64,000 nucleotides of DNA from Asterias amurensis (lineage: Eukaryota > Echinodermata > Asteroidea > Forcipulatida > Asteriidae), in contig NC_092660.1 in NCBI RefSeq assembly GCF_032118995.1, forward strand, positions 511,501-575,500, in the 5' to 3' direction. How positions within the stretch are numbered: position 1 is the first letter of the stretch; each line of letters opens with the position of its first letter. The position numbers and the translations under genes are program-made. The notes below the pieces were generated by a model that saw only the letters and a program-made list of their open reading frames with translations, was not told the origin of the DNA and searched no databases. Shown in pieces: positions 414 through 38,200 of this stretch.

Positions 414-3400
414 TTGACGAGAACAATATCTATGGGTCTAGCGAGGATGACTATGCAGGGTTTATCCTTGGTGTGTTTCTGCTCCATTTGAGATGGCTTC
501 CCTTTGACAGCTTGAGCCATCTTAGCAATGACTGACTTGCGTTGTGTCGTCGGTGCTTTGAGGTAAGATGTCTGCTTCATTGGGACAGTCAGTTCTTGTA
601 GTCTCTTCCGGAGCTTGTTCACAATCTGTACAGAGCCAAAGTTTATACAGCTGCTTAAAGGCATGGACACTTAAGACCTTTATCACGGTGTGGCCATCTT
701 GATTTTACTCCATTCCAACTCATTGTAACCAAACTGAGGCTTGACGAAATAATAGTCTGGTGCCATGTTTGCTTAATGAATGTTAGCATTCATTACTGTT
801 ATGGAAACAGGGAGCATGACCAAAAAGGTGACAGCATGATAAAGGTCTACTGGTAATCACTGTTAGAATAAAAACTTAGTTGTTAACGATCAATGGAGAG
901 CTGTTGATAGTATAACACATTTGAGAAAGAAGTGATTTTTCACTAAAATATTTGAATTTGGTTTCAAGACCTCATAATTTGATTTTGAGGTCCCGAAATC
1001 AAACATCTGAAAGCATACATCTTATTTATCACTCGAGACAACAGTCTCCGAGAAAGAGTTTGCTAGAATGTGATGCCATTAGGACTTTTGGCATTTATCA
1101 TTGATTATGAATTTGCACCAGGCAACAGATTACAAAAAGTAAGGTTAGAGATTTAAGTTCATTTTCCTCCAGAAAAGGTGGAAATAGTAGACACACACTT
1201 GTGTGGATTGGGTCTATAACTTGTTTGGATCATTACAAATCATGTATAATACCTTTAACACTATCAACAGTTAACTCTGTGCTCACATCTTATTGATCTC
1301 TAAACCTCACCTTATTTCTCTCATGACCTGGTGTACCGCCTAGGAAGGCTAGTCTAATGACCACACAAGGCGCCTTAGATAAGATTCGGATCAAGTAGAA
1401 AGATGTGGGAGGACTGTTGGCATCTCTAGGAAATGAAAACAAATCACTTTTAAGAAAGAGGTGGAAGGACTGTTGACATCTCTAAGAAATGAAAACAAAA
1501 CAACTTGAATAAAGAGGTGGGAGGACTGTTTGCATTTCTATGAAATTGTATTCACTAGTTTTATTTGACATAATCCTACATAGTTCGGCTAAACTAGCCG
1601 ACCAGCTTACTAGGCATGGTAACGTCACTGGTTATCAATAGGCGTTTTCAAAGTATGATGACAACATACGTGAGTCTATGATACCTACATGTACCTGTAC
1701 TTACTTAGTAGTCAGAGTGATATAGCTGTGGTTCTCTAGCAATGTGGACGTACTGAACTCTGTTAGGAGGGAGTTGATACCTACATGTACCTGTACTTAC
1801 TTAGTAGTCAGAGTGATATAGCTGTGGTTCTCTAGCAATGTGGACGTACTGAACTCTGTTAGGAGGGAGTTGATACCTACATGTACCTGTACTTACTTAG
1901 TAGTCAGAGTGATATAGCTGTGGTTCTCTAGCAATGTGGACGTACTGAACTCTGTTAGGAGGGAGTTGATACCTACATGTACCTGTACTTACTTAGAAGT
2001 CAGATTGATATAGCTGTGGTTCTCTAGCAATGTGAACGTACTGAACTCTGTTAGGAGGGAGTTGATACCTACATGTACCTGTACTTACTTAGTAGTCAGA
2101 GTGACATAGCTGTGGTTCTCTAGCAATGTGAACGTACTGAACTCTGTAAGTAGGGAGTTAAGTTCCTTCTGAGCAACTCGACACTGGATGTTGTTATAGC
2201 GACCATTGTTGTTTGGTAGGTAGAGATGTTTTGGCAATGGCCTACAAAGTTATGATACAAAATGAAGAATTAGAGTTAGAATAGTTAAAGACAACGTACA
2301 CAATAAATAGCTTTTACCCCCCCTCCCCCCCAATTTTTTTTAAAATCTGTTTTCATCTGAAACAATTCCATCTAAAATAATTTGTAAGTCAAGAAAATAG
2401 TATTTGAAGACCTCTCCCGAATCAATGTTTCTGCTGAAATATTTCACGAAAGTTAACTAGAATTATTTTTAGATGTACCCATAAAAATACAATTTGACCC
2501 TCAAATTTAATGCAAATGTTCACATTTTAGTTATTAAAAGGGAAATAGTATTACTTTTCCAAACCACCATGATGTATTTTCCTTTTCAAAATTTACTAGC
2601 TATAATCGTTCCAAAATTCAGTTTGACAAAAAATACATTCATTTAATCTATTAAAAACAATTCATTCAAACCGATAAATATCCTTTAGAAAACTTCTATC
2701 AATGTATGATAGATTGACTTACATGTCTGGGACTAAGAGCAATGGAATCTTGTGAGTGTGTAACCACCTCTGCCTGAAAAAAATAAATAAAAAATCTTTT
2801 AGGAACAGTTGCGCACAATTTCAAACTGGAAACTCGTGTTTTGTTTGTCCATATTCCCAAGAAGGCGTCGGCTGAAGACATCCTCTCGCTCAACTGTTCA
2901 TATCTCAACAGCTCAAGGTTTAAAGGTACTGGACACTATTGGTAATTACTCAAACTAATTGTTAGCATAAAACCTTACTTGGTAACAAGTCAGTGGATAG
3001 CTGTTGATAGTATAAAACAACGTGAGAAACGGCTCCCTCTAAAGTAACGTAGTTTTTAAAAAAGGAGTAATTTCTCACTGAATATTTTTAAATTTCAAGG
3101 ACTCGAATTCAAGCAACTGAAAGCAGACAACTTGTGTGACAAGGGTGTTTTTTTCTTCCATTGTTCTCTCGCAACATTGATGACCAATTGAATCCAAATT
3201 TTCAGTCCAAAAAAGATTGACAATTACCAAAGGTGTCCAGTGCCTTCAGCCATTAGATTTAGAGACCATTTTGCAAGCAGCGGTATCAAAATGCCTGTAG
3301 CGACCTAAAATGGCAGCACAGCTTGACCTTCTGCCACTCAACCAAAAAGGTCAAAGGTCATATCCTGAACTGACATAATTTCAATACTTCCACATCAACA

Positions 3401-5857
3401 CAGTATCTTCATTTGGGAACAAAAACAGTTGTAATTTTTCCTAACATTTTTACTAAAACAAAAAACTGCACAAACATTCCTCATTATAAGCAATGTCTGA
3501 GTTTAAGGTGGTTTCGTCCTTCGGATGGGACGTAAAGCCGTTGGTCCCATATGTTGTGTAACGCATGTAAAGAACCCAGTGCACTTATCGAAAAGAGAAC
3601 GAGTTCGCCCCGGTGTTGATGGCTGTGGCTGCTGTATGCGCCGTAGCACCTTGTAAACCCTTATAAGGTGCTACATAATTGGGTCTTAGAATTCATCACT
3701 GTAATTACCTATCTTTCTGAAAGTTTGTATATATACCCAGCGCCTTGAGTACCTTGTTTGGTAGATACGTGCGCTATATAAGACTTGATATTATTATTAT
3801 TACTATTTATTTCAAACATAAATGAATGGGATGAAATTACTTAAATAAGATCAAAATACAATGGACTCAAGATTACCATTTCTTGGGCTCCATCAGAGCT
3901 ATCCTCTTCCAGAAAGCTGCAAATTGTTCCAAGCTCGAGTCTCTGTTTTATAGAAATGCAAAACACAAACATTGATAATCATCACAACAGAAATAAATTA
4001 AGTAGACCCCTTGCTGACGCTTCCAGGGTTGTGATGTAAACTTGGGTATGATCACTGATTACCTGGTTATATGGAAGTTAATGGTTGTATGGCTTCTGAC
4101 AGACATCCCCGAGCAAAGATATTGACAAAATTAAGGAGATTGGCCAACATAGGGCTAGACAGCTCAGTTGATAGAGCAACAGCACGTTAATCCGGAGGTC
4201 ATTGGTTCAAATCCCGCTTTACTCAATTGTTCTTTGTTCAATTTTTAACTTCCCCATTGCAATAATTCTACTGTTCTCCATGCTCATCTAGTTTCCCTCC
4301 TGTCATCATCTTTTTTTTTAACTTTGCTATTATGTATGTTTCTTAGGCTAGGCCTATGTTTTTTGCTCTGTTGTTTTAGTTCTTCATTTTGCCTTGTATT
4401 TATTTTGTATTTGTGATGCTGTAGTTGAATAAATAATAGTAATAGTAATAATACTGGGGTGATGTGTGAATTCAACTGACTTTGTGTCAAACTTCTGGGC
4501 CAGGACCGGGGTGTCCGAGTACGGAGGCATGTAGAGCAGTGGGATGCCCTTCTTGATTCCTTCTGGTACTTTGTAGAAGATTACGTTCGTTGAGAAAGAC
4601 TGAAGATGAACTAAAAGCTGGTCTGTCTCTTGTAAGCTGCAAGACAAAGAGTTCAAATAAACATCCTTTAAGGCAGTGGACACTATTGGTAATTACTCAA
4701 AATAATTGTTAGCATAAAAACCTACTTGTTAGCGACCAATGGAGAGATGTTGATGGTATAAAACATTTTGAGAAACGGCTCCCTCTGAAGTAGCGTAGTT
4801 TTCGAGAAAGAAGTAATTTTCCATTATAATATTTGAATTTGATTTCGAGACCTCAGAATTTGATTTTGATGTCTCAAAATCAAACATCTGAAAGCAGACA
4901 ACTTCATGTGACAAGGGTGCTTTTTCTTCCATTATATTATCGACAACCAATTGAGTTAAATTTTTCACAGGTTTGTTATTTTGTGCAAATGTTGAGACAC
5001 ACCAAGTGAGAAGACTGGTCTATGACAATTACTGAAGGTGTCCAGGGGTCGATTTCACAAAGAGTTAGGACTAGTCCTAACTTAGGACTAGTCCTAGGAG
5101 ATATACAAATTGCATGGATAGTCCTAAGTTAAGACGAGTTACTGTTCCTAACTCGAGATAAGACTAGTCCTAACTCTTTGTGAAATCAACCCCAGTGTCT
5201 TTAAAGGAACATAACAGAATTGGTTTTGCTAACAAAACAGTTGTTGGCAGTGTAAGCACTTTATGTAATCCACCATACGTAAACTAACAAACCTGTAAAA
5301 GTTGAGAGAGATTGGGATTGGATGTAAGTAGGGTTTGAAACCTTGCACGGTAGGAGTATAATTAGGGGAGGTTTGCGGTAGCACTGTAGGTAAATCTCTT
5401 TTGAAGAACCGGTGTTGACATCTCAACGCTTCAATCAGTATGCTTTTGATCAAGCAAGACACTTAACCATTGCTTCGTCCATCGGATAGGACGTAAAGCT
5501 GTGTGTCCCATGTGTTGTGTAAAGCATGAAAAAGAACCCAGTGTACTTATCAAAAAGAAAAGGGGTTTGCCCCGATGTTCCTAGCAGTGGCAGTAGAATG
5601 CGCCGTCTCAGAATTCGTAACTTCAATAGCCTTTATTTCTGTATTGGTAGATAAGTGCGCTATATAAGGCTTTGATATTATCATTATATTTTCATTTATT
5701 GCTTTCATTCATTGCTTACCTTTGTAATGTTTGCCAGAAGTTTGTGACGACCTTAGCGCGGTAAAGGTTGTGGGGACTCTTTTTCATAGGGCAGGTCACA
5801 TCAAGTAGAAACTCATAGCTCCCTTCCATTATCACATCAACATTGGTCAAATGCCTG

Positions 5858-5903
<46 letters not shown>

Positions 5904-8900
5904 GTCAGTTTATTTCAACATTATCAAAACCAAAATCAAATCAAAGACAATGTTAATTGGAAGTTAAGTAATAAATAGTTGTTTGATAAGATTAATTAGA
6001 ATAAGCATGGACCTTATCGCAAATACCAATGCGCAAGCGCAGACTGTTGAATGAGGTGCATTGTGGGATTTATATGAATCAAATTTGTAATCAGCTAGAC
6101 CACAATGCACCTAATTCCAAGCTTTACGCGCGCGCCCCAGTATTTGCGAAAAGGTCTATGGACATTCATGAAACTGTGGAGGGACCCCTAAAGAAGCAAA
6201 GCTTGTAAGGTTATGGGCCCCTGATGAACAAGTGCATGCCATGAGCCGATAGTTTGTTTGATGTCTTGTGGGAGATATGCTCCAGCAGCCGGATTCATGA
6301 AACACTAGGATTGAGTAACATGTCCTAACTTAGGATGGGTTCAAACGTCCTCGGAAACTGAACTGACGTTGTCCTAAGTCCTGAGATTAATCCTAAGTTA
6401 GAAGGAGTTTGGTGAAATTGACGGCAGGTAGGAATAATGTTCCTAAAAGAACAGTTGTATTCATGAAGTCTCAAGCTGCCAACAATTGCCTTATACTGCA
6501 AAACCATCTGGAAAAAGAATGTTAGTGACTACGTAATTCATACCTGTTTGGATTCAGAGGCCATGCAGATGAGGCTATGTATTCAATCCTGCCGTTGTAT
6601 TTCCAGGGGAGGGCTAGTTTCACTTCTATCTGTTTGTCATCTGAAAAAGAAAAAAAAAACGTCAGTACAAATGAGTTTACAAACCACCGACACCGAAGGC
6701 ACTGGAAAATATTTGTAAGCATAAAAACTCACTTGGTAACGAGCAATGGAGAGCTGTTTCCTCTGAAGTAACATAGTATTTGAGAAAGAAGTTATTTCTC
6801 ACTAAAATATTTGAATTTAAAGAGACCTCAGCTGAGGTCTTAAATTCAAGGTATCTGAAAGCACACAACTTTTGCAACAATGATGTTTGGTTTTTTTTTC
6901 ATTATTCTCTTGCAACTTTGACGACCAATTGAGTCCAGATTTCCACAGGTTAGTTATTTTATGCATATATTGGGATACACCATGTGAGAATACTGTTTTT
7001 TTGACAATTACCAATAGTGCCAATGCCTTTAAGCTCAATCGCTCATCAGAATCATAAGCACATCGAGAGAGAAAACAAGTTTTTATTTTCAAATGTTGGA
7101 CTTTGGATTTCAAGCAAACATACTTCAAGGCTGCAAGGGAAGTTTTCTACCATGTCCAACTTTTATACCCTGTAAGTTTCAACAAACCTGTGAACATTTG
7201 TATTTTCAACCTCACCAATGTTATGTGCGCCCTTTAAACAAACTGTGCCATTTCTTTCAATTCAATTCAACATTTATTCGTCATGCCAGTGTGAAAATCA
7301 TTTTGCACATATTAAAAACATTACATATAAAATACACAACACAAATATATTAAAAGCAGAACAAACCTTTAAATAAGAACAAGACTCGATCAAAATATTA
7401 AAATATTAAAATATTAAATAACGAAACTAAATGACCAATACAAGACAAAAACACAAAAGGGGACGGGATAAAGGATATAGTGGGGCAAAAGGGGGAACAA
7501 AGTAACATGACACAGGGAAGATACAAGGACATAATGGGTGCGTTTGATTAGCTTCCCTGGGTCAACCCCTGAGGTGCTCACCACTCGGGTGAGCCCCTGA
7601 CAAGAGCTAATCGAACGATCACTCACCCTCTCGTGGTGATGTCATGCATCTCGGGCCAGCCCAAAGTGACCCACTCCACAAGCAGGGCACTTGGGGCTGA
7701 CCCGGGTGAGCCCCTGGAATGACGCCAAAGCTATTCGAACGTACTGGGGGCAGACCGGGGTCTACCCAGGGAAGCTAATAGAACGCACCCATAGAGAATG
7801 AGGAAGGGGAGGGAGGGTAAACAAACGTGTGTAAAAAAGACCCAAGGGAAACCTAGAATTGCTTACTTTTTGTGAGTGCCACATCCTTAATGGTGTAGCC
7901 CTCTCGTAGTCTAACAGAGAGTACATTGGCCAGGCAGGTATGCAGCTTGTAGTCTCTATGCTTCTTCCTTATCAATGGGATGGTACACAGTCCCTGCTTG
8001 TTCAGTGCAAAGGGTGGCTGGATTCTGTACAACAACAAATTATATATATATATTCTGTATAAAAACGTTTCAAACTTCATTGTTAATTTACTTCAAAGCA
8101 GACATCTTTGAACATCAGAGCTGCAAATCAGTTTGATATGACTAATGTCTGCTGCAATTGTCTACTGCTAGGTCTCCCAAACTACCTAGCTCAGAAGCTC
8201 GAACGAGTCCAGAATATCGTAGTCAGTCTAGTGACAAACACACTGAAATACACGCATATTACACCAGTCCTAAGAAGCCTTCACTGGTTACCAGCTGAAC
8301 AGACACTTGCATACAAAGACCTTCTCATCACCTTCCTGCATGAAAGTTCTCCTCACCTGAAGACATGTGGGACTGTTTATAGTTCAAGACCAAATGACTT
8401 GCTTGTGGGATGTCGTGACCAAGCGGTCTAGGGCAGTGGACACAAATTAATCTACAGATTTTTGGTTTGAATCCTGGCCTGATCGGTGGGACACTTGTGT
8501 TCTTGTGGAAGGCACTTTAGCAGTAACATTTTTAGCAGTAATTGAAAACTATTTTCTGACAAGGCTGGCTACAAATGTCATGAGTAAAATAGAATAAAAA
8601 TTGAGAACAAGTTACAAACCCCTCTGACTGAGCGCCAACTTCAGGTGAAACGACTTGATGTTGTCTGCCTGTGTAAATAAACATAAATTGTTGGCAAACA
8701 TTAGTGAAATCTGAAACTTTCACTCTGTATCTTAGAGAGTTAAAGGGAATTCATACTTTTTGTACAACACAAAACACAATTTCCACAGATTGACATTAAA
8801 CTTACACAGTTTAAAGATGATAATAGAAAGCTTCCCTTAAAATACCACTAGCCGAGGTGCTATAGTTTTTTTTAAATGAGTAAAACAATGTCGCAAAACA

Positions 8901-11900
8901 CAACTTTCGTCTCAGAGAGACAAAAATTATTTTACACCATTACTGGTGAATATGTTGTACTTGTTAAAACTGAGAAAAAAATTATTTTTGTGAAATTGAT
9001 TTACTCATTTCTCAAAAATTACAGCACCTCTGCAAGTAAACATTTAAAGGGAAGCTTTCTGCTATCATTATCTTCAAACTATGTAAGTTTAATGTAAATT
9101 TGCAGACATTGTGTTTGGTGGTTGAGTAACCAAAAATGATGTTGGATTCTGACAAGCTCACGAAAATGGGGTAAAAAGGATTTACGGATGGACAAGATAC
9201 AACAGTCCACTTCTATCAGTATCCTTCAGTTTGAAACAGCTTTATTCTTGATATAAATGACTTATCAGGAATAAAAATCAACATCACAACTTACCTTTAA
9301 CGTAATCTATCTTGAAACCTTCCAGTCCTTTCTGGAAATTCCAAGACAGAAATGCTTTGTGATACTGATTCATATCTCTCCTGGATATATCCTGGACGAG
9401 AGGAAACAAATAATTTAGAATGAATCAGCCTTTTGTGTATAAAAATAATATCAAAGTCTTGTATAGCGCATAACAAGGTACTCAAGGCGCTTAGTAAGGA
9501 TATTTAAACAGAAAGATAGTTTATTGAAATTATGAATTCTGAGACCCAATTATGTAGCACCTTATAAGGGTTAACAAGGTGCTACGGCGCACTAAGCAGC
9601 CACAGCCAGGAACACCGGGGCGAACCCATTCTCTATTCAATAAGTGCACTGGATTCTTGTATGTGCGTTACACAACACACAGGACTAACGGCTATACGAC
9701 CTTTCCGAAGAACAAAGCAATCATGATAAAGTGTCTTGCTTAAGGACACAAGTGTCCTGACTGGGCCTCAAACCCACACTCTTTTGATCAGAAATACCAG
9801 AGTTTGAGTCTAGTGCTCTTTAAGACAGTGGACACTATTGGTAATTGTCGAACGACTAGTCTTGACAAACCTGTGAAAATTTGAGCTCAATCGGTCACGA
9901 AGTTGCCAGATAATAATGGAAGAAAAAACACCCTCCGTCACATGAGTTTGTGTGCTTTCTGATGTTTGAAATCAAATTCATGGAAAGTAACTTCTTTCTC
10001 GAAAACTACGTCACTTCAGAGGGAGCTGTTTCTCACAATGTTTTATACTATCAACCTCTCCCCTTTAATCATAATAAAGAAAGGTTTTATGATGATAATT
10101 ATTTTGAGTAATTAACAATAGTGTCCACTTCCTTTAACCGCTCAGCAAGGACATGCCCGAAATTTCTCACTTACAATTTCCGGACACTTGCACAGAAAAG
10201 CACCGAAGGTTGCTGTGGCCATAAACTGCATGATCTCAGTGTGAGGGATATAGCCGAAGCTACAATGGGGATGGAACCCTCTGCCTACTTGGATGAATGA
10301 ACAGGCTACTGTGGAATTCCTCATCTGGGTCAGGAGATGGTTTGTACATGCTACATCAGGCATTGCTGTTACTCCATCCGTAACGCAGATAATTCCTGAT
10401 TGGAAACGATAGAGGAACAAATTGCAAGCTTATATTGAGTTCATATTATGTTTAAATATATACACATACACAATTAAATCATATGTCTGTATAAGTTACT
10501 CATCAGCAGATTTGGACCAAGATTCGTTCAAACTTTGTTGCAAAACATGCAACAGTATGTAATACCCAGGGCAAATTTTCATTTAGCAGTCTAGTGTAAC
10601 TAAAAAAATAACAAGTAATAAGCCACTGCGTAAATCTTAAAATAGTGGTTTCTCACTAGCATCCCGGAACAAGGAGACCTCCAACATGAGGGTTAGATAA
10701 CCCATTTGGTAGAGGATGTGCATGCTAATCCAGACTAGTAAATATTTCCAACTTCAACACCCAAAATAATGAAAAATAATATTAATAATTGTAATGCGCA
10801 CATATCCATCCTGCTGGGTGTTCAAGGGGCAGTAAAACCGAAAAACAAAACAAAACAAAGAAAATACAGACACAACAAAATAAGTCATTGAAAACCTGTG
10901 ACATAACAAAACTTTTGAGAAGAGATTTGAATTTTGTGGTACAAGAACAAGATCTAGGATTAAGTGGGAGAGAGTTCCTGTTGCGTGGCGCAGCTGAAGA
11001 AAAAGACCTGTCACCCCATAAGTGGTGAAACTTGGGTTCAATGAGGAGAAGCATGGAACTTGATTGAAGATTCCTTGAGGGAGTGTAAACGTGAAGTAGT
11101 TCACAAATATAGTGGGGAGCCTTGCCATTAAGGTAAAGAGACACAGCCTACCTGCACTTGTGTTCTCTGGCAGCAACTGCAGTGCTAGAATACCACACCA
11201 TAGCATGTTAACAAAGCAAGCTTCTGGAGTTGCCATCCCTTGTCCTTCAGAATTGTGTCTATGCGGTGACGACAGAGCGACACGTTCACTCTTGTCGATG
11301 ATGTCATCGAATACAATGTGATGATCCCCGAGGAACGTAGAGTCTGAACTGGTATTGAATCTTGTGTCCAACATATCTGATGATCCAAATATTATACAAA
11401 TAATGAATGTTTATGAGTGCAATGGTGTGAATATTTGCATGAGTTGAAAGATGACATGTCCAATAATTATTCTGATTGGACTCCAATATTCAATTTAGGA
11501 GTGCTGCAAGGATGGCACAGGGTCTAGTTTCTGTCACAGATTGAAGCAATGTCATGGCTTTAATGGTACAATAAATGTCGGAATACACATGGGACTTGAA
11601 TGGTCTGCTACCAGAAACATGCAGTCAGAATAATTATAATATTTTTTTGGAAAAGACCATGTATAATAAGCCATTACTTGGCAGTAGACTGAGCAAGTCT
11701 TGCACGTATTCGAACATTGGGACCTATTTAAGTGCGAAAGTTTGTTTCCTTCACAGGTGTCTCCAAATATGTTAGGATCAAGTGAGACTAGCATGATCTA
11801 TCGTAAATGGCTGCACTTAAGTAGGATTTGAAACTTTGCATGGTGGAAATAAGATATAGAAGAGTCTGCGGTAACACCATGTAATAACTATCTCTAAATG

Positions 11901-14900
11901 AGTTGGGGTGGTTCTGAAAAGAACCGTTGGATTAACTCGACGTTTCGATCAGTATGCTCTGATCGTCTTCTGGAGAATGCTGCACTTACTTTCAACAAGT
12001 TTATTTTCAAACTCTTCAAGTTCTTTCTGGAGTTGATCCAAGAATGAGGGCAGGTTGTGTTCCGTCAACAAACAACCTTGGAATAAAACCTGCAGAAAAA
12101 AAAAACAGACATGAAAATCAAAGCGCCAAAGAATTCAAAATCCCACCATAGGCCAATGTACAGTCTGATTTCCTTTCTTATTAATACAGACCTTGAAACA
12201 ACCCAGAGCACCCACAGTTGTGCTTTTGCAGTGGTGCTATTTGCACAGTTCAAATACAAATTTAAACTTTCCTAAAAGAAGAATTATTAAAAGCCTTGAA
12301 CACATTTGCACAGTTTGATTTCAACTGCTCCACAGCCCTTTTCACACTACTTTATTCCCCAGGGGCAACCCGGGAATAATGGCCAGCCTTTTCACACTTT
12401 GATGGTGTTCACCCCGGTCTGCCCCAGGGACTAGCCACTCTTGCTCCAGAGTAGGGGTAACGGTAAAACTTTAGGGTTTTCTTTAAACGAGCAAGCAGAA
12501 CCCTGTGGAATGGTGACCTAGGCGAGGACAGTGAGAACAAGTTTAGGGTAACTGTAGGGTAAACAAAAAAAACTTCTGGGGCGTCCCCAGGGCTGTATTT
12601 TACAGAGGATAAGAGATACAGTGTGAACAGGCTAATATTTGTTGACTTGTGATGTATTTTGCTCACCTGTTGTGTTGTGAGTGAAGCCAGTGGTGTGTAT
12701 GCAATGACTGTTACGTAGATCTTGGGTGACAGAAGTAAGGAGCTGCCAGGTACAGTAAACTGAAAGAAACAAAACACATCAAGTCAATAATCAGGACCCA
12801 ATTTCATTGAGCTGCTTTAGCAAAAACTAGTGCTCAACAATTTTATGCTTAGCAGAAATGCTTAGAAGGATACCAGTCACAAATGATACATGTGACATGG
12901 TATTTTGGCAGACATGGTATTTTGGCTGGTAACCCTGTTCTAGTAAGCACGGGTAAGTTGTGCTAAGCTACTTGCTGTGGTTATAAGCAGCTCTATGAAA
13001 TTAGGCCTAAGTCTTACTTTATCTGCTTAAATATAGGATATAGGTGTACCAACGTAATTGTGGGTGGGCCCACACCCGTTGGCCGACCGCACAAGACGTG
13101 ACAGAGCTCCGTAAAACGAAGTGAAACTGCTTGGAGTCGATGCAAGGGACGTGACAGACAGGGTCAAGTGGAGGAGAGCCATATGGAGAAAACAGGCCAA
13201 TTCAGAACAGACTGGACAACAGCCTTAAAACCGTCATAATGATACATACATACAAACATAAAAGGCATTTGTAAAGCGCCACTACGTCAAGAACGCAGCG
13301 CATTTGGTTGGTTATAGAAAATGTTTAACAATGTTCACTGAGAGTCAGATTCCCTGATTGAGATAATACTTACCGGTTTGATGAGTCCATTCAAGCAATT
13401 ACAAATACAGGTAAATAAGTCTAGGAGACAGACTCGACCAGACTGAATATCCTGCAAAATGGAACAGATGATAACATTTTTAATAATAATAATAGTAAGA
13501 ATAATAATCATAGAGATTTGGCAGGTGAAAGTGAGATTTAGTCCCTGTGGTGGTTGGAGCATCTAGCACCATTCCAAAAGCACTGGGGAAACTTCTAGAT
13601 GAAATAGGAATAAATATTAGCAATGTTCGAAGGCAAATGTTTATGTTCCTACTTTCACAACTTTTGTTTTATTTTTTGCATATTTTAATATATGCCTGGA
13701 TAATGCTCTTTCCAAATGTATAATAAAACGGAAAACGACCTGGGTCTAAAAACGACTCATTTTTCTTGACTTTTTCGTGCATCACCTATACTGAATGATA
13801 TGTGGTCTAGTGGTCAAGCTTGGTGATCTAGTTGGTATGACACTGTTCTAGAATTACAAAGGTCGTGGGTTCAAATCCCACCCGAGAAATATGTCTGTGA
13901 TTTTTTTTCTTCACAGAACTCAGGGAAGGTACTGAGTATACAGTGCTAACACACATCGGTGTATATGGGTCAAACCAAAATGAATATTCTATTCCCGATG
14001 CAAATTGATCATCTATTGATATGTGGTTTATTTTTTTAAACATTTTTTTTATTCACTTACCACCGTTGCCATAGACGGACTTAGATCCATTACAATAACA
14101 TGCCTATAACGTCTGGCTAGGAAGGTCACATGACTGCTTGGAACCAGCTTATACCGTATCGGAGTACCAGGTGGAATTTTATCCACGCTCCCTTTGGGTA
14201 TAATGGATATAACATCCAGCTCTTCGTCAGAGTTGATCTGTGGACAGGCACAAATGAAAATAACAATCAGTAGAATTTGAAACTTTGCATGGTGGAAAAG
14301 CGGTATAGAAAGGTTTGCGGTAACACCATGTAATGAAAATCTCTTACCGAGTTGGGGTGGCTCTGAAAAGAACCAATGGTTTCAACTCGACGTTTCGATC
14401 AGTATGCTCTGATCGTCTTCTGGAGAAAGCACAGAAAGATGATCAGCTTTCTGCAGAAGACGATCAGAGCATACTGAACAAAATGTAGAGTTGGAAACAC
14501 CCCAACTCTTTCAGAGATTATCATTACATGGTGTTACTGCAAACCTTTCTATAAAATAAGAATCGTTAACAAGTTCTTAGCTTTGAGATGTTCAGCTAAG
14601 TGAGTGATTTCTATCATAGCATATTCCTTCATACACTCACTGAAAATATCATGCGCAGATTAAAATGAATGATCAGGGGTCGATTGCACAAAGAATTAGG
14701 ACGAGTCCTAACTCAGAACTAGTCCTAGTCCTAAGTTAGGACAAGTAACTCATCCTCACTTGAGATAAGACTCAAGTTGGGACCAGTCTCAACTATAGTT
14801 GGGACGAGTTGGGATCAGTCTCAACTATAGTTGGGACGAGTTGGGATCAGTCTCAACTATAGTTGGGACGAGTTGGGATCAGTCTCAACTATAGTTGGGA

Positions 14901-17575
14901 CGAGTTGGGATCAGTCTCAACTATAGTTGGGACGAGTTGGGATCAGTCTCAACTATAGTTGGGACGAGTTGGGATCAGTCTCAACTATAGTTGGGACGAG
15001 TTGGGATCAGTCTCAACTATAGTTGGGACGAGTTGGGATCAGTCTCAACTATAGTTGGGACGAGTTGGGATCAGTCTCAACTATAGTTGGGACGAGTTGG
15101 GATCAGTCTCAACTATAGTTGGGACGATTGTCAAATTGGGGCGGAACAACAGCCTTGTTGAGGTGAACTTACCAGGTCTTCTCCTGACTTCACCTTGATC
15201 TCTTTGTTGAGATTACCAAAGAACCACGAGGCGCGGATATTCCTTGAGATCCGATACTCTTCCTTCATGAGTAGATAAACCTCTCCTGCCTCACACTCCT
15301 GGATTTATTTAAATACAACATGAAAACTTCACACTGATTTTTAAAGTACAGAACATCATTTAAAGTATTTGGGTACTTTTTGTAGGATACCAAACACAAA
15401 TGCCACGAGGATAATGATGGTAGAAAGCTTCCCTTATATTCCTTGCTGAGGGGCTGCAGTTTTTGAGCTATTGAGTAAAACAAGTTGCAAAAATAATGTT
15501 TGTCTCAGTGAAAATTATCTTAGCTTATAAAATAAAAACATATTAAACTCACCTGGAAGTGGTATTTTGTCAAAATATAGCTTTTGTCACGTGTTTTGAT
15601 GAGTGGAATGTGAATAAATAGTTAACTTAGGTTCTAAAAAAATAGTTGTTATCTTATTTACAAATTTAAGAGTAGACCCCGAACTAGTGCTGGGCGAATA
15701 GTGAAATTTTGTTATTCGGATACCGCTGGCCAACTATCCGAAATTAACCGGATATTCGAATAGTTTTTTTCGCCGCTAGAGGGCGCTATTTAAAAAAAAA
15801 TTAAATTTATTATTATTATTTTTTTTGCTGCTAGAGGGCGCTGTTCGTTTGTGAATGAGATCTTATTGGCGGATTGATATTAGTTTTAGACAGTGTCACT
15901 CGGTTCATTCATAAAAATGACCGGATCTAATTTAAAGATGGCGATTTGCTTTTTCTTTTGATCGTGATTGACTCTACGTGAAGGAAAACTTTTGTAATCT
16001 TTGAACAAATTACGTCAGAAATGTCATTGTTTTAACTCTTCACGGAGGTGAGCATAGTTAAATACTTAATATATGCTGTTTTATGCTGTCTTAATAGAAG
16101 TTTCATAAGGATTCAGACAAAACATTCATATGCGTTGTCGCCCGACGTCCGCGGATATTCGGATGTTAAAGAATATCCGGTTACTCGGTTGTAATTACAG
16201 AATTATCCGGTTTGTAAATAGGTATTCGCGCCCTATGCGGATATCCGGTTAAGAAAAAAAAGGCATTCGCGGTTACGGATAGGAAAACCTATTCGCCATT
16301 AACCGGATATTCAAATAATTCGCCCAGGCCTACCCCGAACCGAGAGGGCACTGTTCGTGACATCAAACAAGGCGCGATATTTAGAGAGAAAAAACTGCAC
16401 TGCGCTGAAAAAGACGATGGACCGGACCACTATGGGCACAATTGCAAGAGTGAGTCTGACCAGCCATGCAGACTGACCCCATCTTTAGTTGTTTTGCTGG
16501 ATCCAGCAGCAATACACTTGGTCGATAATGCCAGAAAATGCAAGCCAAGAAAATAACTTTTTTGAAACGTACAAACTCAATGACTTGGACTTGCATGTAC
16601 TTTGCACGTGTCTTTACTCTATGCATCAAGGCAAAGTCTGCCTCGATTGACGCCACAAAAAGGGTCGGGGGAGTCAACCCCTAAACAACTTTAGCTATTG
16701 TAAACATATATAAATCGTGACAAACAATTACCAAAAAAATTGTTTTATTGTTACTAAACATTTACTAAACTCTTACGTTTGAACAAATAAAAATTATATT
16801 TCCAGGTGACTTTAAAGACAGTGGACACTATTGGTAATTGTCAAAGACCAGTCTTGTCACTTGGTATATCTCAACATAATACATAAAATAACCAACCTGT
16901 GAAAATTTGAGCTCAATCGGTCGTCAAAGTTGCGAGGTATTTAATCAAAGAAAAAACACCCTTGTCACACAAAGATGTGTGCTTTCAGATGCTTGATTTC
17001 GAGACCTCAAATTCTAAATTTGAAGTCTCGAAATCAAACTCGTAGAAAAAAATAACTTCTTTCTCAAAAACTATGTTACTTCGGAGTACGACAGAGAATG
17101 TCAAAATCTCGAAAAAAGGTGTACAGCGCCCCAGTTACTGGGTCTAGGCTTACGATACAATTATCGCAGCTCAGCTAAAGTGAGCAGCTAAGAAAAAATA
17201 CATTCACCACAATTATGATTATCCCAACGGAAAAGTTTCTGTATGGCGCCACCACTTTTTCAGGCGAAATGAAATATTAAATAATATATTATGATTATCT
17301 AATTTACCTCAAACTCAATGATGAGATACCCCTTTTTGTAAAAATAAGTGAAAAAGTGGTGGCGCCATGCGGAAAGTTATCCATGTATTTTATTAGGGAT
17401 AACTTTCCGTATGGCGCCACCACTTTTTCACTCATTTTTACAAAAAGGGATATGTCAATCAGGTAAATTAGATACTATATTATTTTATTTCGAATGAAAA
17501 AGTGGTGGCGCCATACGGAAACTTTTCCTTTATTAGGCTTACCACAGAACTTTGATCTCTTGGTTCAGAACCCAT
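414..17575 (-). CDS. SZT2: SZT2, KICSTOR complex subunit (N-terminal part, runs off the left edge)
   Basis: SZT2 is the large scaffold of KICSTOR, which recruits GATOR1 to lysosomes and restrains mTORC1 when amino acids are scarce. I assembled 19 phase-consistent exons (2,363 nt, ~788 residues of a family protein of ~3,400): 17543-17575, 15173-15298, 14061-14237, 13374-13451, 12667-12759, 11990-12089, 11152-11376, 10175-10395, 9295-9391, 8616-8668, 7867-8017, 6544-6640, 5720-5854, 4455-4636, 3877-3940, 2723-2773, 2089-2241, 1311-1425, 414-625. Recognisable blocks include EAGEVYLLMKEEYRISRN, VTFLARRYRHVIVMDLSPSM, VACSFIQVG, RLREGYTIKDV, NDKQIEVKLALPWKYNGRIE, FLLDVTCP, QRWLHTH and RILSKAPCV, all colinear with vertebrate SZT2. 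DLSPS (residues 104-108) fits the DxSxS pattern of von Willebrand A folds and VTDG (282-285) a second such strand; this fold is my inference. The start MGSEPRDQSSV resembles the vertebrate N-terminus and joins exon 2 in phase. The exon 19 donor implies more exons to the left. Introns 15 kb-1 kb are filled by repeats. Confidence 0.96.
672..850. mobile_element. P9 palindromic element
   Basis: Ends AGACCTTTATCACGGTGTGG and TGACAGCATGATAAAGGTCT, with GGCCATCTTGATTTTACTCC inside. Confidence 0.75.
845..1025. mobile_element. P1 MITE, partial
   Basis: Left half of P1 (GGTAATCACTGTTAGAATAA to the GAGGTC / GACCTC inner palindrome), fused to a P9 element at 672-850. Confidence 0.7.
1395..1560 (-). repeat. 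SZT2: 56-bp tandem array: 3' splice site plus SZT2 exon 18 start, three copies
   Basis: Three units, spaced 56 bp (GGACTGTT anchors at 1411, 1467 and 1523), each hold on the minus strand a polypyrimidine/AG acceptor (TTTCCTAG, TTTCTTAG, TTTCATAG) followed by an exon 18-like start (AGATGCCAACAGTCCTCC). The unit next to the exon body continues into the real exon 18 (ends at 1425). The two intronic units lack the rest of the exon and are more diverged than the donor array at the other end of the same intron. Confidence 0.9.
1681..2160 (-). repeat. SZT2: 96-bp tandem array: SZT2 exon 17 end plus 5' splice site, five copies
   Basis: Five head-to-tail units begin at 1681, 1777, 1873, 1969 and 2065. 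Read on the minus strand each unit contains the last ~60 nt of exon 17 followed by the splice donor (TACTAA/GTAAGTACAGG) and the first intron bases. The exon-proximal unit (2065-2160) carries the donor used in the gene model. The others lie inside intron 17 and keep GTAAGTA intact. Units differ at only a few positions, so the expansion is recent. Confidence 0.97.
2921..3247. mobile_element. P1 palindromic MITE
   Basis: Ends GGACACTATTGGTAATTACT and CAATTACCAAAGGTGTCCAG; internal GGAGAGCTGTTGATAG, CTCCCTCTAAAGTAACGTAG and a hairpin-like centre. P1 is the most frequent family in the window. Confidence 0.85.
3511..3810 (+). mobile_element. SINE family S1, 5'-truncated
   Basis: Body from CCTTCGGATGGGACGTAAAG through TATATAAGACTTGATATTATT, lacking the tRNA head. 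Confidence 0.8.
4005..4262 (+). mobile_element. SINE family S3 with a tRNA-like 3' part
   Basis: A leader (GTTGTGATGTAAACTTGGG, TGGTTATATGGAAGTTAATGG) is followed by a tRNA-like unit AGCTCAGTTGATAGAGCA ... GGTTCAAATCCCGC. Confidence 0.7.
4668..5204. mobile_element. P1 MITE interrupted near its end by a P2 MITE
   Basis: P1 runs from GGACACTATTGG (4678) to GGTGTCCAG (5044). A P2 element (5045-5193) follows at once, and the P1 end resumes as AGTGTCTTTAAAGG. Confidence 0.85.
5448..5695 (+). mobile_element. SINE family S1, 5'-truncated, joined to a P6 element
   Basis: S1 body from AAGCAAGACACTTAACC to the GATATTAT tail, abutting a P6 palindromic element at 5325-5447. Confidence 0.75.
5858..5900. 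repeat. (AATC)n microsatellite beside SZT2 exon 13
   Basis: About ten copies of TCAA/AATC begin 4 bp upstream (in transcript sense) of the exon 13 acceptor. Confidence 0.95.
6007..6162. mobile_element. MITE in SZT2 intron 12
   Basis: Ends TGGACCTTATCGCAAATACC and AGTATTTGCGAAAAGGTCTA, with an inner TGCATTGTGG / CCACAATGCA palindrome. Confidence 0.75.
6697..7032. mobile_element. P1 MITE
   Basis: Complete but diverged copy, from GGCACTGGAAAATATTTG to CAATAGTGCCAATGCC, in SZT2 intron 11. Confidence 0.75.
7535..7791. mobile_element. P5 MITE, SZT2 intron 11
   Basis: Ends TGGGTGCGTTTGATTAGCTT and AAGCTAATAGAACGCACCCA; inside repeated CCCGGGTGAGCCCCTG motifs. Confidence 0.85.
8108..8431 (+). mobile_element. 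LINE reverse-transcriptase C-terminal fragment
   Basis: A 107-codon frame reads LPNYLAQKLERVQN and HITPVLRSLHWLPA, the signature of the thumb/C-terminal part of CR1/L2-like or related non-LTR retrotransposon proteins. It is 5' truncated and lies in SZT2 intron 10 on the opposite strand to the gene. Confidence 0.85.
8741..9130. mobile_element. P4 palindromic MITE, intact
   Basis: Inverted halves around AAAACTGAGAAAAAAATTAT: GAAAGCTTCCCTTAAAATAC ... AAAGGGAAGCTTTCTGCTAT, CAGCACCTCTGCAAG and AACACAATTTCCACAGATTG. Confidence 0.8.
9446..9822 (-). mobile_element. SINE family S1, near full length
   Basis: Minus-strand copy from the GATATTATT tail (9446) to the tRNA-like head (GAGCACTAGACTCAAACTC), abutting a P1 MITE at 9823. 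Confidence 0.8.
9823..10138. mobile_element. P1 MITE
   Basis: Both ends present (CAGTGGACACTATTGGTAAT; AACAATAGTGTCCACTTCC), adjoining the S1 SINE. Confidence 0.85.
10754..11144 (-). mobile_element. LINE C-terminal fragment in SZT2 intron 7
   Basis: The minus-strand frame reads YLNGKAPHYICELLHVYTPS and RSFSSAAPRNRNSLP, the end of a CR1/L2-like reverse transcriptase ORF (compare the GKAP...YTP...AAPRLWNSLP pattern). It starts only a few bases from the exon 7 donor and shares the gene's orientation. Confidence 0.85.
11820..11978. mobile_element. P6 element, directly beside SZT2 exon 6
   Basis: GTTTGCGGTAACACCATGTAA-type start, GGTTCTGAAAAGAACC hairpin, CTCGACGTTTCGATCAGTAT and GATCGTCTTCTGGAGAA. 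It ends about 12 bp from the exon 6 donor. Confidence 0.75.
12787..13015. mobile_element. P7 palindromic MITE
   Basis: Ends CCAATTTCATTGAGCTGCTT and AAGCAGCTCTATGAAATTAG; middle with ATACCAGTCACAAATGATAC. Confidence 0.8.
13036..13240 (+). mobile_element. LINE 3'-end fragment in SZT2 intron 4
   Basis: A plus-strand frame (ARDVTDRVKWRRAIWRKQAN) followed by a stop resembles the last residues of RTE/CR1-type ORF2 proteins. Only ~200 bp remain. Confidence 0.6.
13811..14030 (+). mobile_element. tRNA-derived SINE, family S2
   Basis: Box A-like TGGTCTAGTGGTCAAG, box B GGGTTCAAATCCCACC, then a body with TTTTTTTTCTTCACAGAACT and CCCGATGCAAA. It ends close to SZT2 exon 3. Confidence 0.8.
14273..14552. 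mobile_element. P6 element, inverted pair
   Basis: A forward copy is followed by a shorter inverted one (TTTCTGCAGAAGACGATCAG ... GGTGTTACTGCAAACCTTTC), together a large palindrome in SZT2 intron 2. Confidence 0.8.
14673..15145. mobile_element. P2 palindromic MITE with internal 32-bp expansion
   Basis: Starts AGGGGTCGATTGCACAAAGA, AGGACGAGTCCTAACTCAG. The second half has been replaced by the 32-bp tandem repeat. Confidence 0.8.
14770..15130. repeat. 32-bp palindromic tandem repeat inside a P2 MITE
   Basis: About eleven nearly identical units of GTTGGGATCAGTCTCAACTA...GGGACGA expand the middle of a P2-family element that starts at 14673. Each unit contains its own palindrome (TCTCAACTATAGTTGGGA). 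It lies in SZT2 intron 2, about 40 bp from exon 2. Confidence 0.95.
15352..15545. mobile_element. P4 MITE, half
   Basis: TTTGGGTACTTTTTGTAGGA, GAAAGCTTCCCTTATATTCC, GCTGAGGGGCTGCAGTTTTT; directly beside SZT2 exon 2. Confidence 0.75.
15685..16332. mobile_element. Non-autonomous hAT-type element in SZT2 intron 1
   Basis: Imperfect terminal inverted repeats TAGTGCTGGGCGAAT and ATTCGCCCAGGCCTA bound a 648-bp element, flanked by a perfect 8-bp duplication CCCCGAAC (15677-15684 and 16333-16340). Eight-bp duplications and these ends are typical of hAT elements. The ends are rich in CCGGATATTCG-like motifs. No transposase frame is present. Confidence 0.9.
16813..17087. mobile_element. P1 MITE, truncated, fused to a fold-back terminus
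   Basis: Starts GACAGTGGACACTATTGGTA and stops at ACTTCGGAGTACGACAGA, where the fold-back family end begins. Confidence 0.8.
17088..17153. mobile_element. Isolated terminus of the fold-back family
   Basis: About 65 bp ending GTACAGCGCCCCAGTTACTGGGTCTA match the right terminus of the element at 63373. No partner arm is seen nearby, so this is a remnant fused to a P1 MITE. Confidence 0.75.
17229..17528. mobile_element. Two adjacent P3 palindromic MITEs next to SZT2 exon 1
   Basis: Copies at 17229-17382 and 17397-17528 share ends GGAAAAGTTTCCGTATGGCG / CGCCATACGGAAACTTTTCC and the arm GGCGCCACCACTTTTTCA. The second stops only 14 bp from the exon 1 donor (17542). Confidence 0.9.
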
Positions 17576-21302: not shown

Positions 21303-30291
<8,989 letters not shown>

Positions 30292-30435
30292 AAAGGATGT
30301 CAGGTAGTCAAGTAAGATTCTTTAGACGTTACTATTCCATCGATTCACTAATCTTGACATGTAATTTAATCAGACCACATATATCCCATAATGGAGATTT
30401 GGTCGTCTTCTCCTCTTCTTTTTTAGCTAATAAAC

Positions 30436-30905: not shown

Positions 30906-30918
30906 TTGTGTGTCACCT

Positions 30919-32874: not shown

Positions 32875-33090
32875 TGTCGCTTCCCAGGTTGTATCGTTAA
32901 CTATGGTGTGATCCCTGGCTATATGGCAGTAACAGGTTGAATAGCTTTTCTAACTGGCACCCACCGACAAAATATTGATAAAATAGGGAGACCACCCTCA
33001 CAGACCTAGATATCTCAGTTGGTGCAAGTTAAATCGGAAGTTGCAGGTTCAAGTACAGCTCTTGTCAATTTTTATTTGTTAAACCTCAAA
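32875..33090 (+). mobile_element. SINE family S3, second copy
   Basis: Same order as at 4005: GTTGTATCGTTAACTATGG leader, GGCTATATGGCAGTAACAGG, then TCTCAGTTGGTGCAAGTTAA and GCAGGTTCAAGTACAGCTC. Confidence 0.7.
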
Positions 33091-34984
33091 TGAGAATAAT
33101 TTAACCCAGTCAGTTTCTCCTGTAGTTTATTACTAGGGATTCTACTATTTTTTACTTTTGTGCCCAATTGTTTGTTGACGCGTCCAGTTTGACATATATC
33201 TCAATTGTAGTTTGATGCTTGTCCCAATTGTGATTGGTTAGTTTGACGCTCGTCTCAATTGTTATTGGTTAGTTTTAAAGGGGTGGAACTTAATGGATCG
33301 ATCTACAGAGCAAGAAAATCCAGACTCTATGCTTGATTAATAATAAGAGAACAATAAAAATATCAGGCCTTTTAATACCATAATCTTTAAGTAAAAATGT
33401 TGCACTAAATGTGTACCAAAATTGTTAATTGATTTTCCGCATCATATGAAGATGTCGCTTGCTGTCGTGTCATATCACGCCTTTTTGACTCCTTTTAGAT
33501 CTATTATTTAAATGAATAAATTATGCACCTACTCTGTTTAAGTTTGCCTACAGATCATGTTTACTGGATGAATATTTGTCATGGAACAGACCACTGTTTT
33601 CTTGTACATTATTAAGTCCACTGAACTGAAAATAATAGATTTTTTTTAATAGATGTTAATATTAAATTTCAACGGAAACAATTATTCATTTTTGTTTTAC
33701 CCATACACCGATCAATTTGGTTTTGCGCAACTTTGTCGCGTCTGTCTGAAACGGGTGTTTGCGCGCTTCATACTTGACAGACCATTCTGCATTCTCTTCA
33801 TAGATTGAGATGGGTTAAGGAATGAAATAAATGGCTTAGTGACAGGGATAATAACCTTCATGCAACAGGAGTGCCAATAAGAGTGGATTCTGGCACAGCA
33901 AAATCATTATTATTATTATTGTATTTATTAAATCAAAAGGTAACGGGGACATGTCTGTACTGTGGTATACCTGGAAGTCTCATATTTGTAAATGTAAAAG
34001 GAACGAGGTGGTTTGGGGGGGTTTTCTGTTTAAACATTTGTTTTAGCAAAGCAAACCGTTTTAGGTTTGTTCAGTACAGTTACTCGTAATATTTGGCTGA
34101 AATTTGTTTTGGATATTAATAAACTATGATACAGGGCGATGAAAACTTTCCAGAATTAAATTTACGTTTGTATTTTAGGGAAACTGAAGTTGGTATTAGA
34201 GTTATAGTTTTGAGATAAGGTTGCGGGGGAAAAACAGCCATTGATGTCCAGAAATACACTTTGTGGTATTTTATTTGTTATTCAGGCTGGTACAATATTT
34301 GATTGCAAAAACGAACATTTGATAGACATTTCAGTATGATTTTATTCACCAGAATGAAACACCCGAGATGACAGTAAGTTAACTATGGATTGAAATGAAT
34401 TAGCAAGGAAGGTGCAACCAGAAATCAAATAAATGTATCACTTGAAATATTTGTCTCCATCAAGAAATTGATTTATTCTTTAGTTTGACGTGTATGACGC
34501 CCTTCATTATCCCTATTCACACTACAGAACTTTAACACCAGCAAGTTCCTGGGTAATTTAACATCCCCCAAAACAACCGTTAAATTTCCAGTCAGTTTGT
34601 TAGTTTACTCCTATGCACAGGTCAAACTGATGTGACTTGACATGCGCCAGGAGTGTCACTTATAACAGTTAAATTCTTATCTTGTTCCACCATCTTCCTT
34701 CCTGTCACTCCAATGTTTTCTGTTGTACCCTCAACCAAATTCCCTCTAAACGTCTTTCTTGTTTTAAGTTCACATATTTTTTGGTATTCCCTGCCTGCAT
34801 GTCTCTTTCTTGTCATGGGCCAAATAAATAAGACAATTAGAAACAAGTTGTAGCAAACTACTGACCAACCAAAAGGTATAAATGGTATAAATGCAAAAAC
34901 AAATAGGCCTTTAAGACTCTGCTAGGCTCAAAACCAACATCATGCCATAAACTATTTTTCGGAAAGATAAAAAATAACAAAACC

Positions 34985-35165
34985 AAAGCCTGGTTCATAC
35001 TTCCTGCCAATGCGATACAAATTTCGACATCTCAAATTTGCAACAAATAATTCGCGTCAGTTGGCTTGACATGCTTAACCCCTGCGAAACATTCAGTGCG
35101 AAAACAGCCCTGTTACGTCAAACTTCATTTCGCATTCGCAGTAACTTTGAACCGGTCTTAATGAC
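34985..35165. mobile_element. Candidate MITE just beyond the MED8 stop
   Basis: Imperfect inverted ends AAGCCTGGTTCATACTTCC and TAACTTTGAACCGGTCTTA; may form part of the MED8 3' UTR. Confidence 0.5.
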
Positions 35166-35215
35166 TGCAAGATAATCTACAGTAAACTAAAACATTAAGA
35201 GATGCTTGATGAACT

Positions 35216-38200
35216 TCATCTATGACCGTATGGATGTGCAGTTACTCCAGCCTTGATGTTAGTTTTGATGGTACTTTGTGCTTTACCCATGGCAACTGTA
35301 CAGGGGGAAAAAAGAACAAATACCTTGTTACTATTTTTATGCTAAAGCTGTTAACAACAGTCCCCTAGCATGAGCTGCCACCATTGATGAAGCGTGCACG
35401 CATGAAAGACTATCACTGGACGAGTGTCGTGCGCAGTGCATACATGCGTAGACACTTCCATTGTTTGCCATCAAAGATGGTAGTCAAAGACGTCATGTGT
35501 AATCCATCCATAGTAATGCCCAAGTACCAAACGCAGGAAGAAAGTTCTTTGTTACTTAACATGTTTCTCGCTTAAAGGTAACGTGGTTTACGAGCCAAAG
35601 GTCCCTGAAATTCTCAGGACCAGTCCAAAATTAATTCCAAGCAGTGTGGCTGGCTAGAGTTCAAATGAGTAAACCAGGGTTGCCCCCCCCCCCCCCCTGG
35701 ACAATACTAGTAGTAACTAACCATGCTGGTCTTGTCTCTGTGATTGTGATAGGGTTGGTTCCCCCCGGGACAATACAAGTAGTAACTAACAATACTGGTC
35801 TTGTCTATGTGATGGTGATAGGGTTTGCTCCCCCTGGACAATACTAGTAATAACTAACCATGCTGGTGTTGTCTCTATGCTTATGATAGGGTTGGTTCCC
35901 CCTGGACCATACTATTAATAATTAACCATGCTGGTTTTGTCTCTGCAATTGTGATAGGGTTGGTTCCCCCTGGACAATACTAGTAATAACTAACCATGCT
36001 GGTCATGTCTCTGTGATTGTGATAGGGTTGGTTCCCCTGGCCCTGGACAATACTGGTAATAACTAACCATGCTGGTTATGTCTCTATGATAATGATAGGG
36101 TTGGTTCCCCCCGGACAATACTAGTAATAACTAACCATGCTGATCTTGTCTCTGTGGTTGTGATAGGGTTGGTCCCCCTGGTTGACCCGGAATGCTATGT
36201 TGACCTTGTACAGGCATACGGATGGGTTTCAGCCCTCTACCGTTGGTTATAGCTCCGACTAATGCCGCCGTGTCTGTAGGATTAGAGTTGCTCAGTGACG
36301 TCAACCTCATTGCTGGCAAAATAAAAGAACACATCATGAGTGGAGCTGTTTAGAAACTGTTTTCCTAATTACATTATGCTGACTCAGTTCTGTTGATTTG
36401 TATGGAAATAAAATACAAATAACAAATCGTGACAATCTGTGTTAAAGTCCTCTTTCAAAAGTCAATGTTTCCCTTCCTATATCAATGATTTCTTCTTTTG
36501 ATTGAGGGTGAAAAATAAATTATATTCTTTATCGCGATGCAAAGTATAACATCTTTTGAGGTACCCATTGCTCAGGATTTGATCTGTCTCTAGCCATCGG
36601 GCTAGCTTGATGTTCTAGTAGCAAGGGTCGTTGGTTTGAATCCCAATCTAGTGATTTGACTGTGGATTTTTTTTTCACAGAACCTTGAGAAAGTTCCCAG
36701 TACAAAGTGCTTAAAACACAACTGTGTATGGGTAAAACCAACTTCTAGTCTTTATCCCCGATGCAAAAGTTAGAAATTGACTGGGTAAGTTCTAAAATAG
36801 TTTTGGGTCTTACCGGCATTATCGCCTTCCCAGTCATCCTTCGCACTGTTCACCATATCAAGGATTCGATTAACAAGTTTATTCATGCTGTTAATCTGCT
36901 TCTGTTAATCCCAAAAGAAAATTATGGCAAAATGAAGAGAGTGAAATTAGCAATATGAGCACAGAAATGTTGTTTCTTAAATGTTGTTATGTTCGTATTT
37001 TGGGAACTGTCAACAAGCCATAGGGAGTTATGTCCACCCAGGAAGATTAGTCCCGAATATGAAAACACAATCTGAGAAGCCTTATCTCATATACAGATTA
37101 CGAGGCATCAAAACTTACATCTTTTTATATAACCACATTGCTTCAAAGTGAAATGTTTCTCACAATGCTTCATAAAATCAAAAGCTGATGTAGGCTTCTA
37201 ACCAAAAGATCTTATTGCCATTAATCGAAAGAGTGATAACCAAATGAACACCTTCCCTTTTAGACTAGTTTTAGAGATTAAAAATCAATTGAATGATGAC
37301 AGAGCTTTAATATTTACCTGAGCTTGTTCAGGAGCTATGGTAGCTGCCTTCTGCTTTATCTGCAACTCTCTCTCCTCAACCTCTGGTTCTGCCTTGGTGC
37401 GTAGATAATTAGGTACAACCTCATGGTTGAAGGCTGGCACACGACCCTCTGTCATTTTCTAAATATCGGTTAGAACAGACGGTCATAGATTAGCTCAAAT
37501 CCATCCCTGCACTAAAACCTTGCTCAGACCATTTAGGATCATATTGTTATATATTTTGTAGGGCTTGAGTTCCATTCTTGAAGAAGCACAGTAATTTCCC
37601 TCTGGTAAGGGTCACTTCTAAGAGGACAATTTTTTTTAATTTGTATTGGAACTTTGCAGAGGGCACCAATGCAAAAGCACAGGGCACCACAGCAATTGCT
37701 GTTGGTGCCACAGATTATTTTGAGGCCTGCACTTCTGGTCATGAAAGCAAGGATGCCTCTTATATGAACTTGATCACTGTAGATCACTGTAGATCACTGT
37801 AGATCACTGTAAACAAGGATGCTTGCTATGTGAATCAGAAACGCCATGGTCAACCCCTACTCTTCCCCGATAAGTGTTCTGGGTTCTTGACTACCAATCC
37901 CAATTCACAGGACCTAGGGCTCAATGTCCCATGTGAAGGGGGCAAAAATGGGCTGAAGCGCACTAGTGCCATGCATGATTGGACTTGGAACTAGGCCAGT
38001 GCAACCTCTAGTTCTAATGACTCTATGGTTCACACTTAGTACAATGAGGGCGCTGTTACCTCCAGTTCTTCATCTCTATCCTGAGACAGCTTCAGCGGCA
38101 GCAAGACCAGATTCCTTAAAGCAGGAGTCTTATCGCTCTTTAACACTTTGTTCAGTGTGTTAATCTGACCTATAGAAATTAAAGAAAAACTCATTATTTG

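Follow-up and report, generated by a model that had tools for sequence, protein, structure and literature searches.

Tandem arrays of exon ends and splice sites in SZT2, CARM1 and MED8 of the sea star Asterias amurensis

Junction arrays in three neighbouring genes

A stretch of 64,000 nucleotides from the sea star Asterias amurensis (contig NC_092660.1, positions 511,501 to 575,500 of the forward strand), referred to here as the window, was analysed for tandem copies of exon-intron junctions in the genes SZT2, CARM1 and MED8. Exon models were made by aligning Asterias database proteins to the window and setting the limits at GT/AG. Coding exons 1-19 of SZT2, a gene that continues beyond the window, lie at 414..17575 on the minus strand, and the joined exons were identical to the A. 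amurensis protein P0001 at 780/780 residues. Coding exons 1-13 of CARM1 occupy 21303..30288 on the plus strand and matched 596 of the 598 residues of P0004 from A. rubens. The seven coding exons of MED8 (35219..39006, minus strand) were modelled on the A. rubens protein P0125; the limits of the first three are approximate, as are those of exon 3 of a BBOX1-like gene further along the window.

At five of the 85 splice junctions in the window, the exon's own end was found tandemly copied together with its splice site, in units of 48-117 bp and 3-7 copies. The end and donor of SZT2 exon 17 (exon end 2089) form an array of 96 bp x 5 at 1679..2159 on the minus strand, with the functional copy first. 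In the same gene, the end of intron 17 and the start of exon 18 (acceptor 1425) are repeated as 56 bp x 2.7 at 1397..1546 (minus strand), the functional copy being the last in the sense of the gene. CARM1 carries two donor arrays on the plus strand, one of 117 bp x 2.8 at exon 9 (26707..27039, exon end 26802) and one of 48 bp x 4 at exon 12 (29441..29647, exon end 29472). The end and donor of MED8 coding exon 6 are copied as 68 bp x 7 at 35693..36181 on the minus strand (exon end 36136). Tandem Repeats Finder (TRF) and self-BLAST each detected all five arrays blind. The original prediction that four donor ends and one acceptor end had been copied was thus borne out, with exon limits taken from Asterias proteins. 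Copy numbers and unit lengths were as first noted, the copy numbers including the functional copy. The MED8 array is present as described, but its exon, first numbered 7, is coding exon 6 in the present count, and the three genes have 39 coding exons in the window instead of the about 50 first estimated.

In each array, the exon runs on from one end copy, and the database protein is spelled by that exon-side copy. This protein check was made within A. amurensis for SZT2 and against the sister species A. rubens (proteins only) for CARM1 and MED8. The match of the database proteins to the exon-side copy is compatible with unchanged splicing at the arrays. In the gene models of the window, the array copies at each place sit within one existing intron.

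Separate origins and recurrence outside the window

The five array units were mutually unrelated by self-BLAST. Two arrays, those of CARM1 exon 9 and MED8, were queried against the whole genome (491,506,623 bases, 23 contigs), and each gave one match, at its own locus only. A mobile element was rejected for these two arrays on the basis of the single genome match. The unrelated units and the single matches of the two queried arrays agree with the earlier proposal of separate local duplications rather than one mobile element.

Because the window had been chosen for this very feature, its figures are after the fact, and DNA on which the original prediction had not drawn was therefore sampled: the rest of SZT2, CCT chaperonin genes and myosin exons. 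The rest of SZT2 covers 60 kb with 44 exons and 87 junctions. Its exons were numbered 20-64, with row 47, a copy at exon 46 that had been taken for an exon, removed as spurious; the complete SZT2 coding sequence joins into one uninterrupted reading frame of 11,754 nt. TRF detected 14 arrays here, of which three lie on junctions, namely the exon 46 donor (94 bp x 5.3), the exon 51 donor (135 bp x 2.8) and the exon 34 acceptor (170 bp x 1.9). A copy of the exon 58 acceptor was found by self-BLAST.

In the CCT genes (115 kb, 101 junctions set), 10 arrays were detected and one was on a junction, a donor with five exon-end copies. Self-BLAST added a second case, in which a 31-bp exon end is copied 103 bp downstream. 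The CCT sample comprised 55 of 58 matched segments; the other three, which fall at two sites where a long frame is open, were not used. Near CCT exons, a repeat in L014 and another in L009 resembled such cases and were rejected, both lying outside the exon. The myosin exons sampled covered 29 kb in 27 segments; 43 junctions were set, and none of the 3 arrays detected lay on one. Eleven further myosin segments contained no array with a period of at least 20 and one self-repeat, which was away from exons; the myosin sample was therefore 38 of 81 matches, 27 in the pooled test and 11 checked besides. Junctions could be set for 101 of 110 CCT and 43 of 54 myosin segment ends, which were snapped to nearby splice-like sites.

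Taken together, six further junctions outside the window carry copies of their own ends, four in the rest of SZT2 and two in CCT genes, and junctions are indeed hit repeatedly, as had been predicted. All cases amount to 11 in 316 junctions (85 in the window and 231 outside), with 8 donors and 3 acceptors (SZT2 exons 18, 34 and 58).

Sequence and coding consequences of the extra copies

The four donor arrays of the window contain 15 extra donor copies. These were scored with splice-site matrices from which 5 of 42 donors and 6 of 41 acceptors were excluded, their hand-set limits being a base or two off. Twelve copies scored inside the range of the real donors of these genes. The remaining three were dead or very weak: copy 3 of CARM1 exon 9, weakened to GTACAC, and copies 2 and 4 of CARM1 exon 12, both dead. 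Copy 3 of the exon 12 array has a 10-bp insert. GT was retained in 13/15 extra copies, close to the remainder expected at about 10% drift per site. In the exon-derived parts, the extra copies differed among themselves by 2% (SZT2 exon 17), 3% (CARM1 exon 9), 17% (CARM1 exon 12) and 13% (MED8). Private indels were present in some copies outside the SZT2 exon 17 array, and one MED8 copy contains stops in the exon frame. In the SZT2 exon 17 array, copies 3-5 are mutually identical and copies 1 and 2 differ, copy 5 being also an edge copy; such a pattern of identical inner and different edge copies was not clear in the other arrays.

The reading frames that would follow from use of the extra sites were also compared. 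With a later donor, the message would run into a stop one codon beyond the native junction, at codon 673 for SZT2 exon 17 and codon 376 for CARM1 exon 9. An immediate stop was also found for MED8, where the open frame ends ...QDQHG, so that three of the four donor arrays behave in this way. At CARM1 exon 12 the frame stays open beyond the junction, and the sole intact later donor (copy 3) shifts the frame by one base. Splicing to the upstream acceptors of SZT2 exon 18 would put the message out of frame, with stops at codons 702 and 701.

Two further observations concern MED8. The MED8 protein P0124 (193 aa, from a 984-base contig) contains several spliced exons, then reads beyond donor 36136 and ends ...QDQHG, suggesting that RNA of a relative may retain part of the intron after this donor. 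The intron of the small exon at 38319-38354 apparently opens with GC instead of GT, as read by eye and without confirmation by the model script.

Minisatellite content of the surrounding DNA

The 80 kb adjoining the window contain seven predicted exons and 29 arrays with a period of at least 20. The exon predictor, at threshold 24, overlapped 38 of the 44 exons of the SZT2 rest, which had formed part of the training set, whereas of the 10 held-out exons, from MED8 and BBOX1, it overlapped 5; because it misses exons, seven is a lower bound. Arrays with a period of at least 20 cover 27.6% of the bases in 30 kb on one flank and 7.1% in 50 kb on the other, compared with 4.0% in the window, 8.1% in the SZT2 rest and 1.2% in the CCT stretches. 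This neighbouring DNA, in which few exons were predicted, is equally or more rich in arrays, and these coverage figures indicate that minisatellites are a patchy, general feature of the sampled DNA. The 30 kb beside SZT2 with the highest coverage (L025-L027, contig 13:421501-451500) hold 17 loci.

Origin of the junction arrays

It is likely, and we hold this with good confidence, that the arrays are 'mirage' minisatellites, that is, ordinary tandem arrays with a founding unit that took in an exon-intron boundary by chance. Each array would have arisen as a local duplication and expanded through slippage or unequal exchange. Splicing would keep to the copy joined to the intact exon, which is the first donor or the last acceptor, and the messenger RNA would therefore be unchanged. 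The remaining copies would be near-neutral intron DNA, drifting or homogenised, and slips to later donors would mostly give stopped messages, presumably discarded by decay. Arrays would be common at junctions here because minisatellites with units of tens to hundreds of bases abound in this genome and the genes have many exons. On this reading a mechanism aimed at junctions would be unnecessary, and no evidence was found for one.

The frequency of junction arrays was compared with a null model in which the founding unit is dropped at random, so that the chance of hitting a junction is unit length times junction density. Several results weigh against the minisatellite reading. In the window, 5 of 14 arrays with a period of at least 20 include a junction, whereas 0.77 were expected (P about 5e-4). 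In the version used for the pooled test, the window expectation was 1.08 (P 0.005), the higher value arising because the MED8 period was entered as 209, from the best-scoring row, and not as 68. Window and outside DNA together gave 9 junction arrays versus 3.33 expected by TRF (P 0.007) and 11 versus 6.72 by self-BLAST (P 0.08), the discovery set being included in both. The outside DNA considered separately gave a fold excess of 1.8 (95% interval 0.5-4.6) by TRF and 1.1 (0.4-2.5) by self-BLAST. Moreover, an upstream copy of the SZT2 exon 18 acceptor scores higher in the matrix than the functional one (10.7 vs 8.4), and because of this better score, exclusive use of the last acceptor is for RNA to judge.

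A junction-targeted mutational process, in which breakage or re-replication tied to transcription or splicing repeatedly duplicates boundaries, would account for the excess in the window and in the pooled counts. However, outside the window 4 junction arrays were found by TRF against 2.25 expected (P 0.19), and 6 against 5.30 under the looser self-BLAST criterion (P 0.44). The original prediction of far more junction hits than expected found no support there: random placement, which it had proposed for comparison and which was run on the window and the sampled genes, gave an excess in the window and no significant one in the 231 outside junctions. At the point estimate of the window excess, which comes from five cases only, the outside counts would have been 10.4 and 18.7, and counts as low as those observed would have probabilities of 0.02 and 0.0007; in a direct comparison, window and outside did not differ significantly (P 0.13 and 0.06). 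Array density is also equal or higher in the neighbouring DNA with few predicted exons. The outside count needs no junction-seeking process, and the small sample leaves a mild excess possible, an effect of up to about 2.5- to 4.6-fold being compatible with the data. We regard a junction-targeted process as unlikely. It is doubtful, too, that breakage or re-replication accompanying transcription or splicing has made junctions two to four times as likely as matched intron DNA to found a minisatellite. If this were true, spare splice sites would stand ready at several percent of junctions in minisatellite-rich regions, and intron gain by tandem duplication could be under way in this genome. A null model that places whole arrays gave 2.57 expected in the window (P 0.08); across twelve settings, P was 0.04-0.29 in nine and 0.008-0.02 for periods of at least 45. 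This model would weaken the window excess. It was set aside because an array can adjoin its exon through one end copy only, which makes the founding unit the appropriate element to randomise.

Two other explanations bear on the extra copies themselves. Spare splice sites might be favoured by selection, either to buffer splicing or to provide alternative isoforms, and the 12 of 15 extra donors within the range of real ones would fit such a role. Yet this retention is what drift leaves, and three copies are dead or very weak; a later donor leads to an immediate stop in three of the four arrays, and at SZT2 exon 18 the upstream acceptors are out of frame. Selection for redundant donors, one of the possibilities first raised, was therefore not borne out and is very improbable. 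That the copies are assembly artefacts is the least credible explanation and has almost no probability in our judgement. The identity of SZT2 exon 17 copies 3-5 would be expected of an artefact, and tandem arrays are a classic assembly problem, but elsewhere the exon-derived parts of the copies diverge by 3-17% within an array, and some copies have indels of their own. In addition, the present assembly appears to be the A. amurensis assembly of 491.53 Mb and 22 chromosomes, which according to the available part of its report was built from PacBio HiFi reads and is accompanied by 13.47 Gb of RNA-seq data (PMC10625585).

Relation to known systems

'Mirage' minisatellites have been described in amphioxus, in Adh3, the globins BflGb6 and BflGb9, and PGBD5 (PMC3087553, PMC3902484). 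For lancelet PGBD5, 60- and 108-bp tandem repeats at splice sites were given, with Adh and troponin C cited (PMC3902484). Judging from the available parts of these reports, the sea star arrays share several features with them: a minisatellite-like unit spans a donor or acceptor exon-intron boundary, one copy is joined to the exon and the others are intronic (with units of tens to about 170 bp), and splice signals are present in many but not all copies. Edge copies of amphioxus mirages diverge more than the inner, homogenised ones, and the SZT2 exon 17 array partly resembles this, although its copy 5, at an edge, is identical to copies 3 and 4. At amphioxus Adh3, mirages reportedly differ in copy number from one haplotype to another or change somatically. 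The present arrays are different in being from an echinoderm and not a cephalochordate, in affecting several genes at once, and in having a rate with a chance expectation. The sea star arrays are further members of the amphioxus mirage type, in another phylum. An echinoderm report of such junction arrays was not found in the literature searched, most subscription journals being outside the search. The 11 cases in 316 junctions extend mirages to a second phylum of deuterostomes and provide a first rate.

Internal tandem repeats at exon-intron boundaries are also reported for human genes in segmental duplications (PMC2812944). As far as the available text of that report goes, they likewise extend over the boundaries, but they are differences between recent paralogues and often retained as exon, whereas the sea star arrays are mostly in single genes with the coding sequence unchanged. 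An abalone gene is described, in a source available in part, with an intronic 27-bp minisatellite.

In the Rogers model, introns are gained by tandem duplication of a segment with splice signals (cited in PMC3087553), and the authors of the mirage study suggested that mirages could feed intron gain (PMC3087553). The sea star arrays, like the model as cited there, involve a duplicated segment with a splice signal. Unlike in the model, no intron has been added: the boundary at which the coding sequence is joined is unchanged, and the copies stay in the existing intron. The potato genome reportedly holds a case of intron gain by tandem duplication of such a segment. The intron-gain route raised in the original prediction found no support, as no gained intron was seen in the gene models of the window. 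Moreover, in a minisatellite-rich genome arrays are expected on junctions by chance, and their presence alone is therefore no evidence for intron gain by junction duplication. At arrays of this kind, exon ends may be wrongly placed by gene prediction and by the mapping of short RNA reads.

Other repeats and neighbouring genes

Several repeats lie close to junctions of the same genes. A (CAAT)11 microsatellite at 5858-5901 reaches to 4 bases from the SZT2 exon 13 acceptor, where (ATTG)n before the AG replaces the usual pyrimidine tract. An array of 32 bp x 11 (14775-15127, 99% matching) begins 46 bases past the SZT2 exon 2 donor. Outside the window, about 9-10 copies of a 108-bp unit form an array that stops 4 bases short of the SZT2 exon 41 donor, without exon sequence in its matched extent (L004:8892 to L005:128, joined 28892-30128 of L002-L007). 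At 24622-24960, CARM1 exon 6 is flanked on both sides: a 17 bp x 3.6 array ends 11 bases ahead of the acceptor and a 12 bp x 6 array begins 19 bases past the donor, neither containing exon sequence.

Beyond MED8, a BBOX1-like (gamma-butyrobetaine dioxygenase) gene of about seven exons lies at 42068-49290 on the plus strand. It has an intronic array of 73 bp x 2.1 (46784-46934), 445 bases from the nearest junction. A third reading frame in the BBOX1 region gave no match in the protein search. A stop-to-stop open frame of 565 codons at 54639-56333 on the minus strand is probably a single-exon gene. Near the end of the window, a long inverted repeat at 61938-63374, with arms 62198-62509/62802-63113 (98%) and 61938-62207/63105-63374 (99%), looks like a mobile element.

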